A stretch of DNA of 64,000 nt from Bacteroidota bacterium (GTDB lineage Bacteria > Bacteroidota > Bacteroidia > Bacteroidales > P3): positions 1 through 64,000 of the forward strand of contig JAFNAQ010000001.1 of NCBI GenBank assembly GCA_017860275.1, given 5' to 3'. The notes beneath the pieces are model-generated. The model worked only from the letters and a program-made list of their open reading frames with translations, did not search any database and was not told where the DNA came from. This document shows, piece by piece, positions 8,177 to 64,000 of this stretch (position 1 is the stretch's first letter; each line of letters starts with the position of its first letter). Position numbers and translations under genes: made by a program.

Positions 8177-9322
8177 ATGGATTATAATTTTTTTATTCAA
8201 TATTGGTGGTTTATCATTTCCCTATTGGGTGCTTTACTTGTTTTTCTTCTCTTTGTTCAGGGTGGTCAAACTCTTATACCTTGGCTTGCAAAAAATGATA
8301 TAGAAAGAACTATGCTCATTAACTCTATTGGGAGAAAATGGGAGTTTACTTTCACAACTCTTGTTACATTTGGGGGTGCATTCTTTGCCTCGTTTCCTCT
8401 TTTCTACTCAACGTCTTTTGGTGGTGCTTATTGGGTTTGGATGATTATCCTTTTCTGCTTTATTATTCAGGCAGTGAGCTATGAATTTAGAACAAAAGAA
8501 AATAATATTCTTGGTACGAAAACCTTCGATACATTCCTTTTGATAAATGGTTTTGGTGGTGCTTTCCTTTTGGGAACTGCTGTGGGTACATTCTTCACTG
8601 GAAGCGAATTTGTAATTAATAAAGAAAACATAGCAAATCCAATGATGCCTATTATCTCTCAATGGACAAATCCTTTACATGGGATTGAAGCTTTGTTCAA
8701 TGTGCGCAATCTTCTGCTTGGGGCTGTGGTTTTATCTTTGGCTAGAACACTTGGTTTATTATATTTTATCAACAATATTCACAACCAAACAATTCAAGAA
8801 AGAGCTAAGAAACTACTTAGAATTTGTGGAACTGTGTTTGTATTATTATTTATCACATTCCTTATCGTTACATTCCTTTCTGAAGGATTTGGAGTAGATA
8901 CACAAGGAAATGTAATTATGGTAAAATACAAATACTTCCTTAATTATATTGAGATGCCATTCTTGTTAGGAATACTACTTGTCGGAGTTTTATTAGTATT
9001 ATACGGCTTAATAAAGACTATTTTTACAAAAACACTTTTCACAAAAGGTATATGGTACGTAGGCACAGGAGCAGTATTAGCAGTATTAAGTCTATTGCTA
9101 AATGTTGGGTATAATAACACGGCTTATTACCCATCGACTTTCGATTTGCAATCATCGCTAACAATCTACAACTCATCATCGAGCCTTTTCACCCTAAAGG
9201 CAATGTCTGTGGTATCAATAATTATTCCTTTTGTCTTGGCATACATTTTTTACGCATGGAGAAAAATGGACAAGAAGCCTATTACGAAAGAAGAAATGGA
9301 GGGTGGCGATCATAAATATTAG
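8177..9322 (+). CDS. cydB: Cytochrome bd quinol oxidase subunit II
   Basis: Partner subunit of CydA. The 381-residue protein has eight to nine membrane helices starting with FIQYWWFIISLLGALLVFLL (6-25). The conserved family features GGQTLIPWL (about 29-37) and FEFRTKE-type (YEFRTKENN near 99) loops are visible. It begins 2 nt after cydA. Its TAG stop lies at the start of a 22-bp-pitch palindromic array that also forms the transcript-ending hairpin. No cydDC export genes are seen nearby. Confidence 0.96.
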   Translation: MDYNFFIQYWWFIISLLGALLVFLLFVQGGQTLIPWLAKNDIERTMLINSIGRKWEFTFTTLVTFGGAFFASFPLFYSTSFGGAYWVWMIILFCFIIQAVSYEFRTKENNILGTKTFDTFLLINGFGGAFLLGTAVGTFFTGSEFVINKENIANPMMPIISQWTNPLHGIEALFNVRNLLLGAVVLSLARTLGLLYFINNIHNQTIQERAKKLLRICGTVFVLLFITFLIVTFLSEGFGVDTQGNVIMVKYKYFLNYIEMPFLLGILLVGVLLVLYGLIKTIFTKTLFTKGIWYVGTGAVLAVLSLLLNVGYNNTAYYPSTFDLQSSLTIYNSSSSLFTLKAMSVVSIIIPFVLAYIFYAWRKMDKKPITKEEMEGGDHKY

Positions 9323-9375
9323 GCAAAACAAATTATGCTAGTAGGCAAAATAGACTATGCTTACTAGCATAATTT
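9321..9375. repeat. 22-bp-pitch palindromic array (array 1), doubling as terminator
   Basis: AGGCAAAA occurs at 9321 and again at 9343, exactly 22 bp apart. The second unit (TTATGCTAGTAGGCAAAA, 9333-9350) is followed by an inverted unit centred 22 bp further (TATGCT-TACT-AGCATA, 9356-9371). AAATTATGCTAGTA (9330-9343) is perfectly complementary to 9362-9375 and ends in TTTTT, giving a hairpin that can stop the cyd transcript. The array begins on the cydB stop codon. A 32-nt stretch matches the reverse complement of the 26.1 kb array with about two differences. Confidence 0.8.
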
Positions 9376-26084: not shown

Positions 26085-26120
26085 TTTACCTTAAATATTT
26101 ATCTTATATAGCGTACTTTA

Positions 26121-26202
26121 TTTTGCTTACTAGCATAATTTGTTTTGCTTACTAGCATAACTTGCTCAGGTACCGACAAAATATATTTTGCTAGGAGCAA
26201 AA
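26121..26202. repeat. 22-bp-pitch palindromic array (array 2)
   Basis: Two copies of TTTTGCTTACTAGCATAA stand exactly 22 bp apart (26121-26138, 26143-26160). A degenerate segment centred on GGTACC (26169-26174) follows, then a perfect 17-bp palindrome TTTTGCT-AGG-AGCAAAA (26186-26202) that abuts the stop codon of the debranching gene. Centres are about 22, 20 and 22.5 bp apart. The unit is the reverse complement of that in the cydB-flanking array. It fills most of the 118-nt gap inside the glycogen operon. Confidence 0.75.
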
Positions 26203-31044: not shown

Positions 31045-31125
31045 TATGTTGCCAACATAATAATCATATGTTGGCAACATAGTTTTAATAAGTTGGCAAC
31101 ATAGTAACGATATGTTGGCAACATA
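31045..31125. repeat. 22-bp-pitch palindromic array (array 3)
   Basis: Four 15-bp palindromes of form TATGTTG-S-CAACATA start at 31045, 31067, 31089 and 31111, exactly 22 bp apart. Only one arm base varies (copy 3 starts TAAGTTG) and the central base is C, G, G, G. The 7-nt spacers (ATAATCA, GTTTTAA, GTAACGA) are not conserved. The array starts 19 nt after the lipoprotein stop and ends about 120 nt before the ppdK promoter. The remainder of the 305-nt gap is plain AT-rich sequence. Confidence 0.92.
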
Positions 31126-39892: not shown

Positions 39893-40262
39893 TTCTAGCT
39901 CCTTTCATTTCTTTCTTCGGTTGCGAGAGATTTACTTTCACTTACTGATATATTGATTTTTAATCCTTTGTTTGTTCTTGTTTAGCAATATCATCTTATT
40001 ATTTCTTGGTTTAAGATTGATTTGTGCGCCAAAGATAATTATATATTTTGATATATTATTGACTTTGGAGTTTTATTTTAACTAAAACCTTTGTTTTGGG
40101 GTGTTTTTGTAACATTATGTAGGTTTTGATGTTAAATGTTCGTAATGAGATTAGGGGTTGTGGGTTGAATAATTGAAGAGGATGATTGGAGTTTGGGAAA
40201 TGGTTCGTTAATTTCTTGTAATAAATTATGAGGATTTAGGAATTTTGGCGGTGGTTTTTATC

Positions 40263-40282
40263 AGACGCGATAAATCGCGTCT
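40263..40282. repeat. REP-like perfect palindrome
   Basis: AGACGCGAT and ATCGCGTCT are perfect 9-nt complements around AA, followed by CTCTAC. Such GACGCGAT-type GC palindromes are widespread REP elements moved by RAYT transposases in several phyla. The element stands out sharply from the AT-rich surroundings. Confidence 0.75.
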
Positions 40283-40379
40283 CTACTGGGAATTTTATTT
40301 CGTATTTTTCCGAAGAAACCTCATATTTTTGAATATATCTCTGATAAAAAATTACAGAAACGAGGTTTATTTTCAAGTA

Positions 40380-40466
40380 TATAGCGATTTTATTGCTGTA
40401 GAACTTGATTCTAGAAAAATAGAATCTTATTCTATTTCGCTATAATAAGATTCCATAGCAATAAAA
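40380..40466. repeat. Branched inverted-repeat element
   Basis: Outer arms TTTTATTGCTGTAGAA (40388-40403) and TTCCATAGCAATAAAA (40451-40466) pair at 14 of 16 positions. Inside are two perfect hairpins: GATTCTA/TAGAATC (40407-40426) and CTTATT/AATAAG (40426-40449). The single strand could fold as a three-way junction. TATAGCGA and TCGCTATA give an alternative pairing. Confidence 0.65.
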
Positions 40467-40510
40467 CAAGGAAATATTGCATTTTTGGGAGAGTTCTATT
40501 TCTTAATATT

Positions 40511-40535
40511 AACAAGCAAAGTAACCTTTGTTGTT
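40511..40535 (-). terminator. Hairpin at the end of msrB
   Basis: CAAAG and CTTTG around TAAC, extended by AACAA/TTGTT with one bulged base, overlap the msrB stop codon. It could end the lipocalin-msrB transcript, though the downstream T run is weak. Confidence 0.4.
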
Positions 40536-54758: not shown

Positions 54759-55067
54759 AAACATCAAACCCCGTAGAGACATAATTAATAACTTCTCTTT
54801 CATTATCACGTCTCTGTCAGGAAAGATTTGGTGAAAAATAATTTTAAATAACTAAAGGGGAAGAGTTTTGCACTAATCAAACTTGTGTTAGTGCAACTCT
54901 TAACCTATTTAACATCTGTTTCCTTGTTTCCATGCACTAAGAGGGTGGAAACATGGAAACAAAGCTACAAATCAATTAGTTATAAAAAACAAGGTGGAAA
55001 CAAACGTTAAAACCGATTAAGAATCATAAATAAAAGAACAATACAAACTACAACAAAAGAAAAAGAT
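54759..55067. other. Non-coding gap with several inverted repeats
   Basis: No gene is seen here. AGAGACATAAT (54775-54785) and ATTATCACGTCTCT (54802-54815) form a decayed relative of the REP palindrome. GCACTAA/TTAGTGC (54870-54894) forms a hairpin. TTGTTTCCATG/CATGGAAACAA (54924-54962) forms an 11-bp stem with a 17-nt loop, with extra GTTTCC/GGAAAC copies 8 nt away. Confidence 0.55.
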
Positions 55068-55154
55068 GCTGATTTTAGAAAAAAAGAGTTTGATTTTTCG
55101 AAAAAAATCGGGGAGTTTTCAGAAAAAATCGGTGATTTTTTTTAGAAAATCAGC
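55068..55154. repeat. 22-bp-pitch palindromic array (array 4, degenerate)
   Basis: Four units of form GATTTTn(2)GAAAAAA repeat with junction dinucleotides at 55077, 55099, 55121 and 55144, so steps are 22, 22 and 23 bp. Outer ends GCTGATTTT (55068-55076) and AAAATCAGC (55146-55154) are perfect complements. Unit 2 (GATTTTTCGAAAAAAATC) is itself nearly palindromic. Confidence 0.65.
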
Positions 55155-62833: not shown

Positions 62834-63373
62834 ATGAAATTTGAAAAATTACTTCAAAGTCATTACAAAGACTTTGCAGAGATGGTATATACCAAGTCAT
62901 TTCCTGAGGATGAAAGAAGAGAATTCCCTCTTATCATTGAACTATTGTCTTCAAAAAAAGAAATCTTTGAGTTTTATACATTAGTTCAAAAGAGCTCCAA
63001 CAATCCTGTGGGTATATTAAGTCTATGGAATTTCGAATCGTTTTGCTATATTGAACACTTTGCAATCGAAAAATCTCTAAGAGGCAAGTCTCTTGGCTCA
63101 AAGGCATTGAAACAATTAATGCAAAAAATAGATAAGCCTATTGTCTTAGAAGTTGAGCCTCCCACAACATTTGATGCAGCAAAGAGAATAGAATTCTACA
63201 CTAAATTTGGTTTTAGAATAATAGATAAAGAGTATATCCAACCTCCATACTCTAAGGATAAATCCTCGCTTAAGATGAAGATTATGACAAATAATAACTT
63301 GATTGAAAAGGAAATATCGTTTGAAAATATCGTAAAAATACTCTACAAAGAGGTCTATAATCAAGTACTTTAA
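62834..63373 (+). CDS. GNAT family N-acetyltransferase
   Basis: A 179-residue GNAT protein. The fold is visible as SFPEDERREFPLIIELLSSK (about 22-41), VGILSLWNFESFCYIEHFAIEKSLRGKSLGSKALKQLM (about 56-93, with the acetyl-CoA loop RGKSLGSKAL) and VLEVEPP...RIEFYTKFGFRIIDKEYIQPPYS (about 101-137). It probably acetylates a small molecule or protein N-terminus. It follows the sigma gene by 24 nt. Confidence 0.87.
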   Translation: MKFEKLLQSHYKDFAEMVYTKSFPEDERREFPLIIELLSSKKEIFEFYTLVQKSSNNPVGILSLWNFESFCYIEHFAIEKSLRGKSLGSKALKQLMQKIDKPIVLEVEPPTTFDAAKRIEFYTKFGFRIIDKEYIQPPYSKDKSSLKMKIMTNNNLIEKEISFENIVKILYKEVYNQVL

Positions 63374-63397
63374 ATCGTAGTTTTGATGTCTAAAGAA

Positions 63398-63500
63398 AAA
63401 CATCGGATGTTTGTATATGAAACATCGGATGTTTAAGGTATAAACATCCGATGTTTGAAGTGTAAACATCTGATGTTCGAGGTGCAAACATCCGATGTTT
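63398..63500. repeat. 22-bp-pitch palindromic array (array 5)
   Basis: Five 15-bp palindromes AAACATC-N-GATGTTT start at 63398, 63420, 63442, 63464 and 63486, each exactly 22 bp from the last. The arms are perfect in all but one base (copy 4 ends TTC), while the central base is G, G, C, T, C. The 7-nt spacers of units 2-5 follow RARGTRY. The array fills the gap between the GNAT gene and the converging S46 peptidase gene, starting 25 nt after the former's stop. Confidence 0.95.
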
Positions 63501-63526
63501 TTAATAGGGTATCTTTTATCCTAGAT

Positions 63527-64000
63527 TTATTTCACAAGCGTTAGTTCGTTGATAAGGTTTTTTGCTCCTGCAAATTTGTCGATAATGAACAATACGTAAC
63601 GAATATCTACATTGATACAACGTTGCAAATCAGGGTTAAATGCTATATTTCCACTCATTGCTTCCCAGTTTCCATCGAACGCTATACCTACTAATTCTCC
63701 TTTTCCATTTACAACTGGAGAACCTGAATTACCTCCTGTAATATCATTATTAGAGATAAAGGCTACTGGTACTGTGCCATTTTCTGCATATTGACCATAG
63801 TCCTTTGTGCGATAAAGTTCTTTTAATTTCGTTGGAACGGCAAATTCATCAACCTCTGGATTATCTTTCTTCATTATACCATCTAAAGTTGTGTAATAAT
63901 CGTAGATAATTCCATCCTCAGGGCGGTAGTTCTTAACTTGTCCATAGGTGTAACGAATTGTTGAGTTAGCGTTTGGAGCAAAATGTTTAGTGTTATCCAT
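63527..64000 (-). CDS. S46 dipeptidyl-peptidase, C-terminal fragment
   Basis: The last 157 or so residues of a periplasmic S46 peptidase whose start lies beyond the right edge. [39 protein letters not shown] holds the catalytic Ser (GNSGSP), and [25 protein letters not shown] is the family-specific tail. The residue after FD is Gly, as in DPP7 (hydrophobic P1), rather than the Arg of DPP11 (Asp/Glu P1), so DPP7-like specificity is likely, from memory of those enzymes. S46 enzymes are known mainly from Bacteroidota that use peptides for growth. Confidence 0.94.

Follow-up and report, generated by a model that had tools for sequence, protein, structure and literature searches.

A 22-bp-pitch array of 15-bp palindromes in a Bacteroidales genome and its place among intergenic arrays of 21–23-bp pitch

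The window array and its neighbourhood

The window analysed here, a stretch of 64,000 nucleotides from a Bacteroidales genome of 2.93 Mb (111 contigs, 98.9% complete), closes with a GNAT acetyltransferase gene and the end of a convergent S46 peptidase gene. The space between them is occupied by an array of five 15-bp dyads, which begins 24 bp after the acetyltransferase stop codon and ends 26 bp from the peptidase stop codon (Table 1). An earlier note had described this array as five perfect palindromes on an exact 22-bp pitch. The five starts, the pitch and the central bases (G, G, C, T, C) were all found to be exact, but only four of the dyads are perfect and the one at 63464 carries a mismatch. 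The spacers, in order GTATATG, AAGGTAT, GAAGTGT and GAGGTGC, follow the RARGTRY rule proposed in the same note in three cases and depart from it in one.

Table 1. Features of the window referred to in the text, in order of position
Feature	Position	Strand	Description
TTATGCTTACTAGCATAA-type 22-bp tandem unit	9316..9361		between convergent genes
22-bp unit similar to that at 9316, second place in the window	26109..26167		likeness judged by eye
Second array	31045..31125		four units TATGTTGSCAACATA (third is TAAGTTGGCAACATA), 22-bp pitch
Dispersed element copy	40064..40517		also bounded 39955-40517; ~450-600 bp, non-coding, conserved ends TTTAACTAAAA ... TTTCTTAAWATTAAC
Shorter relative of a similar composite module	55060..55141		AAAATC/GATTTT-type units, 21-22 bp
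GNAT acetyltransferase gene	62834..63373	+	upstream neighbour of the window array
Window array, unit 1	63398..63412		AAACATC-G-GATGTTT, perfect 15-bp dyad
Window array, unit 2	63420..63434		centre G, perfect dyad
Window array, unit 3	63442..63456		centre C, perfect dyad
Window array, unit 4	63464..63478		AAACATCTGATGTTC, one right-arm mismatch, ends GATGTTC; absent from the exact-match list
Window array, unit 5	63486..63500		centre C, perfect dyad
S46 peptidase gene (end)	63527..64000	-	downstream convergent neighbour

A second array, which had been noted to share the 7-N-7 form and the pitch of the first, does have both, its units starting at 31045, 31067, 31089 and 31111 with three of them exact. 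It sits between a gene without Pfam match and a pyruvate phosphate dikinase gene, and the dikinase is 83–85% identical to those of the uncultured Bacteroidales UBA4866, UBA4893, UBA5515, STD2_111 and UBA5371. The real window thus holds one chain of five and one chain of four dyads, both at pitch 22. The earlier note had proposed comparison with shuffled sequence, and 100 Markov-shuffled windows gave no chain at pitch 22 and no chain of at least four dyads, with 14 chains of three dyads spread across pitches 13–60. The window array is real, and others of its kind exist.

The exact site of the window array has no second place in its own genome and no match in the ten other genomes of the genus, while among 101 family genomes it was matched in six others, one of which (G095) showed no clear array of the same type. 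The g2 genomes carry elements of ~100 bp built of AAACATC/AAAGATC units, with spacers that by eye resemble those of the window array. Four g2 genomes have one or two loci each with such AAACATC-type arrays of roughly 100 bp, which were also present in one g12 genome, and some of the g2 and g12 copies bear GGGGAGTATGC-like ends. The window array itself has no evident element ends.

Pitch, unit format and spread of the arrays

The stretches examined came from the genome of the window (667 kb), ten genomes of its genus, G011 (another genus of the same family), G012 and outgroups. Genes were simple open reading frame calls; 40 period-21 arrays were classed as coding, some probably lying in spurious reading frames, and were excluded from the intergenic counts. 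Five named loci (L117–L121) were assigned to the genus by protein identity only, and L121, from UBA5371, duplicates L082 of the genus genome G006 over nearly all of its length. Counts that include these loci are slightly inflated (shuffled consensus, adjacent-unit identity, centres, G.U and A.C pairs, curvature and column tests), and the main counts were repeated without them.

Intergenic arrays of at least 2.4 copies numbered 90 at pitches of 21–23 bp and two over the twenty pitches 18–20 and 24–40 together, a count that covers the sampled genus and one relative and leaves out the five named loci (99 against two with them). Short pitches of 12–17 bp accounted for another 24 arrays with 2.4 copies or more, of which 12 were at 14 bp. 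Direct-repeat lags in the intergenic DNA of the window's own genome gave counts of 40 at 21 and 19 at 22, with echoes at 42 (24), 44 (12) and 63 (14), and 0–9 at the other lags; the count of 8 at lag 23 formed no peak. Chains of at least three dyads were found 13 times at pitch 22 (one of these, in G018, being AT-rich and doubtful), three times at 23, four times at 44 and at most twice at any other pitch. The earlier note had made the existence of a class depend on 22-bp periodic palindromes recurring in close relatives, and the relatives tested do possess them.

Palindromy is most frequent at pitches 22 and 23 and less so at 21, with six of the seven possible dyad pairs reached by 30 of 58 arrays at pitch 22 (12 of them perfect), 10 of 19 at 23 and 45 of 151 at 21, so that 106 of the 21-bp arrays fall short, in comparison to 9 of 109 at pitches 16–20 and 24–28. 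Randomly shuffled consensus units gave six pairs in 10.6% and seven pairs in 0.7% of cases. The unit sequences found at 21–23-bp pitch are many and are unrelated to each other. An array of this pitch was present in 105 of the 210 intergenic spaces of at least 200 bp from the sampled genus and G011, in stretches that were not random, many having been chosen around earlier matches.

The palindromic unit consists of a conserved dyad of 15–16 bp and a spacer of 6–7 bp that is nearly free in sequence and fixed in length. For 22-bp arrays with odd-centred dyads (49 pairs), the identity of adjacent units was 0.78–1.00 at dyad offsets 2–7 and 0.24–0.53 beyond, although the units had been trimmed by their ±7 region, a step that biases the comparison towards the inside. 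In odd palindromic arrays generally, the central three bases were less identical than offsets 2–7 and identity was near random past 7. The 23-bp arrays had much the same profile, while 16 even-centred 21-bp arrays had no clear contrast between site and spacer. When the best 15 columns were compared with the rest, the contrast of 0.380 exceeded all 200 column permutations (maximum 0.307), and in 13 of 30 arrays the centre of the 15 most conserved columns coincided with that of the dyad, while in 18 of 30 it lay no more than 1 bp away.

Odd dyads have spacers of 6 or 7 bp, corresponding to pitches of 21 or 22, and the 16-bp GATGYRCATC units have a pitch of 23, or 22 in two related copies. In the family of the second array (31045), a search that used a 22-bp array as its query recovered 17 loci in four species, and the steps between their 65 units measured 22 bp in 48 of 48 cases, with spacer columns at 0.29–0.58. 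The corresponding 24 of 24 steps at 23 bp in GATGYRCATC loci carry less weight, since some of these loci were retrieved with a pattern in which the first step is already set to 23. Some units pair two different half-sites, such as TATGTTG with CAAGGTA or AAAATC with GAGTTT. The three-nucleotide centre of the next unit was the same in 37 of 96 adjacent pairs and the reverse complement in 22, where 6.5% and 5.2% would be random, and such flipping is expected if both strands count equally.

Beyond the genus, a further sample of the family (20 stretches, 315 kb, four of them chosen around matches), comprising eight more genera and two more g2 genomes, yielded 29 arrays at 21 bp, 13 at 22 and 2 at 23, along with 10 at 42, 8 at 44, 11 at 14 and 0–5 at any of the remaining pitches between 15 and 30. 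Few of these arrays were clearly palindromic, and the G+C-rich g17 genome had none at all. G012 (g3) possesses few such arrays, and stretches from eight other families of the order contained a single intergenic one. Among the 75 named loci assigned outside the genus, a mild rise was seen at lags 21 and 22 (32 and 22) and a higher count at lag 14 (41). The arrays are scarce in the other families sampled.

Dispersed families and comparison with known repeats

Several array families are dispersed repeats that have been amplified separately in each species. The 31045 family occupies six dispersed loci in the window's own genome and was also present in G003, G004 and G008, with no match to TATGTTGSCAACATA in the seven other genus genomes. 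Its spacers vary between loci and its unit number is 3, 4 or 5. At the six loci of the own genome, left flanks and inverted right flanks show an agreement of 0.87 in the first 5 bp, which drops to 0.53 in the 5 bp that follow, and the centres of outer units in the family are reverse complements in 11 cases and the same in 5, which is suggestive only. The 450–600-bp element represented at 40064 contains TAGAAT-N3-ATTCTA units at 21-bp pitch, and its exact right end occurs 32 times in the own genome, once in G012 and in none of 29 other relatives; the ten other genus genomes have no copy of it. The GATGYRCATC pair pattern was found 29 times in the own genome, 28 times in G007, twice in G006 and in none of 38 others; G002 and G010, which are carriers too, were not part of this sample. 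Counts of TAGAATNNNATTCTA, with a reversed control in brackets, were 74 (2) in the own genome, 31 (1) in G006, 8 (0) in G010 and at most 3 in the other eight.

Several further observations were made on array architecture. Words of the AAAACAAGG type flank the 31045 family and the arrays at L084, L092 and L065, and some pairs of these words are spaced 21, 22, 42 or 84 bp apart. A nested mirror array at L018 (18740-18960) consists of 21-bp ATACGCTGATATTTT units, AGAATGSCATTCT dyads and then the first unit inverted. Two small contigs carry 171-bp elements that are 88% identical and have TTGTACA units at 22 bp (L026 1073-1243 and L032 6794-6964); TTGTACA-type units at 22 bp were seen in G012 (GC 51%) as well. 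The AAAGATGYRCATCTTT element (L092 7296-7363, L096 3231-3297, L117 5088-5155 and L119 6837-6905) retains much of its spacers and flanks next to different genes in different species. The motif AAAACAAGGABTT, considered as a universal companion of the arrays, exceeded its reversed control in the own genome (16 against 1), G001 (16 against 2) and G005 (15 against 7) and was rejected because it is not general.

Among known systems, CRISPR arrays have repeats parted by spacers of ~30 bp and are accompanied by cas genes, and this identity was rejected on the spacers of 6–7 bp found here. Plasmid iterons and multi-operator arrays are direct repeats of roughly 22 bp, or two helical turns, that are bound by protein; iterons are usually non-palindromic and located at replication origins, whereas the present arrays share the ~22-bp pitch but are partly palindromic and lie between many genes. 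The closest known kind is that of small interspersed repeats such as the pneumococcal BOX, whose internal modules are longer than the units described here; the present arrays are set apart by pitch, not sequence.

BOX elements of Streptococcus pneumoniae are dispersed and have end modules around a variable number of tandem boxB units (PMC3049150). Several families here likewise have end modules and variable tandem internal units in dispersed copies, a likeness of architecture that was seen in those families and not in the window array at 63398. BOX is one sequence family, whereas here many unrelated units occur at 21–23-bp pitch, partly as dyads with nearly free spacers. REP/RAYT sequences are short intergenic palindromes that are often grouped and amplified by species, and CGTC-tagged REPs without a dedicated transposase are reported from Bacteroidetes (PMC3733652). 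REP membership was rejected, as the units here have an exact pitch, mostly lack a GTAG or CGTC tag (counts no further than 12 bp from the centre, over 214 palindromic units, being GTAG 13, CTAC 10, CGTC 3 and GACG 0) and come from a genome without Y1 transposase. PF01797 (Y1, IS200-like) had no match in the array-carrying own genome, G002, G007, G010 and G011, while five matches were found in G003 and one each in G006 and G008, and 5 of 14 control genomes were positive. MITEs, RUP and SPRITE are short, AT-rich and dispersed with partly inverted ends (PMC3049150); the arrays here are likewise short, AT-rich and dispersed and may have partly inverted ends, but their internal phased dyads set them apart. 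No description of 21–23-bp palindrome arrays in Bacteroidales was found among the titles and abstract openings listed from the openly licensed PMC literature, and the term 22-bp is absent from the main-text portion of PMC5771137 consulted.

Proposed protein-binding sites and alternative readings

The reading we prefer, to which we would give about an even chance, is that the window array consists of double-stranded sites, set in a row, that a putative dimeric DNA-binding protein recognises, and that it is part of a wider set of such arrays. Each 15-bp dyad, made of two 6-bp half-sites and a 3-bp centre, would bind one dimer, and the fixed 22-bp pitch would bring successive dimers to almost the same side of the helix, where they may touch and bind cooperatively. 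The wider set would comprise arrays of pitch 21, 22 or 23 with many half-site sequences within this Bacteroidales family, several of which would travel in small intergenic repeats that are dispersed and have been amplified independently from species to species, and the arrays would either serve the host or be recognition regions of mobile elements.

A phased binding array was one of three options raised by the earlier note, beside a 3'-end RNA structure and a hairpin-driven minisatellite, and it fits best, as the dyads are conserved and helically spaced, the spacers are nearly free but fixed in length and the centres are strand-symmetric. The binding protein, its cooperativity and any consequence for the chromosome or for genes nearby are what we infer from this format; no binding protein was found. 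The uniqueness of the exact window site in its genome would be odd for a dedicated regulator with other targets, and many unrelated half-sites in one genome would require many proteins or one tolerant protein. Further counterpoints are that most 21-bp arrays are not clearly palindromic and that there are mild hints of RNA pairing, namely an excess of G.U and complementary double changes.

Of the alternatives, the one that survives best, although it is unlikely, is that the arrays serve small non-autonomous mobile elements as recognition regions, their dyads being bound by a transposase or recombinase. Half-site diversity would then track enzyme diversity and the arrays would be selfish, which is compatible with DNA binding. 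Dispersed copies with common flanks in the 450–600-bp element and in the 31045, GATGYRCATC and AAACATC families are consistent with such elements, but the array ends inspected had no clear target-site duplication. The window array, with its lack of evident ends, also fits poorly, and it had no exact match in plasmids; two exact two-unit patterns had none in viral contigs.

A second alternative, which we consider quite improbable, is that the arrays are transcribed as RNA hairpins, each a 6-bp stem with a triloop or all together one long nested hairpin, that end or protect transcripts. Compared with shuffled sequence, the two window arrays are predicted to fold much more strongly on either strand (z -9.7 to -11.3), but any row of palindromes gives such strong folds. 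Placement points in both directions: for the 130 of 143 array regions that could be placed, the flanking genes were convergent in 30 cases, divergent in 27 and tandem in 73 (14.6, 9.2 and 10.3 regions per 10 kb, respectively), and 57 of the 73 arrays between tandem genes were nearer to the stop codon, as a 3'-end structure would be, whereas arrays between divergent genes argue against it. Arm pairs were intact in 1019 cases, changed on one side in 172, compensated in 6 and doubly changed without compensation in 6. Double arm changes in two families were nevertheless complementary in 3 of 3 and 4 of 4 cases, the four being one repeated A-T to T-A change. A loose scan for TAGAAT, which mixes step lengths and was left out of the pitch evidence, gave 50 compensated, 64 uncompensated and 803 one-sided changes. 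On the sense strand between tandem genes G.U outnumbered A.C (24 against 13), while on the + strand regardless of genes there were 44 A.C and 34 G.T.

The nested form of the hairpin was rejected, since pairing between mirrored spacers in the 31045 family was at chance level (42 Watson-Crick pairs against 39.6 expected, sd 5.9); in the GATGYRCATC family mirrored spacers gave 21 G.U pairs against a null of 13.9 and 26 Watson-Crick pairs against 43.8. No terminator-like site was found at 63250-63700, and Rfam at gathering level had no match at either window array, its only matches in 144 kb being tRNAs. An RNA structure also gives no reason for the linker between hairpins to remain exactly 7 nt. 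The mostly one-sided arm changes, the centres that flip to the reverse complement and the divergent placement together favour double-stranded DNA sites for a dimer over RNA hairpins and also over minisatellites.

That the arrays are tandem palindromes without function, produced by slippage and template switching at hairpins, is disfavoured and in our judgement very improbable. It would accord with two related copies, L065 9500-9664 with four units and L076 9089-9214 with three, that differ by exactly one 22-bp unit, and with the variable unit number of the 31045 family. Slippage, however, would copy spacer and site alike, whereas the spacers are near random and the sites near invariant, so that the divergence of spacers at a fixed pitch is left unexplained; repetition of whole units was not seen in palindromic arrays once the even-centred 21-bp group was set aside. 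Template switching predicts two-sided arm changes, which are rare, and unrelated sequences have one pitch in common.

The last alternative, that intrinsic curvature from AT tracts at intervals of 10.5–11 bp is all that matters in the arrays, is hardly credible and was rejected as a general cause because, in a wedge-angle prediction, the 21-bp palindromic arrays somewhat exceeded their column-permuted versions (mean z 1.23, n=21) but the excess of the 22-bp ones was weak (mean z 0.43, n=17). The two arrays of the window had scores of 0.62 and 0.22, where the background averaged 0.58.

Returning to recognition sites for dimeric proteins, a broader and more tentative proposal, which we hold to be possible rather than probable, is that the arrays form a class of bacterial intergenic element whose defining trait is architecture, not sequence. 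These would be putative helically phased operator arrays, amplified in the intergenic DNA of one Bacteroidales family, whose half-site families turn over between species as the cognate dimeric proteins, encoded by the host or by an element, diversify. If this is true, one bacterial family would have filled much of its intergenic DNA with sites that keep their spacing and not their words. The arrays would then constitute a natural experiment in protein-DNA co-evolution, with one format and many specificities, and the recogniser could be traced by comparing gene presence with array family across species.
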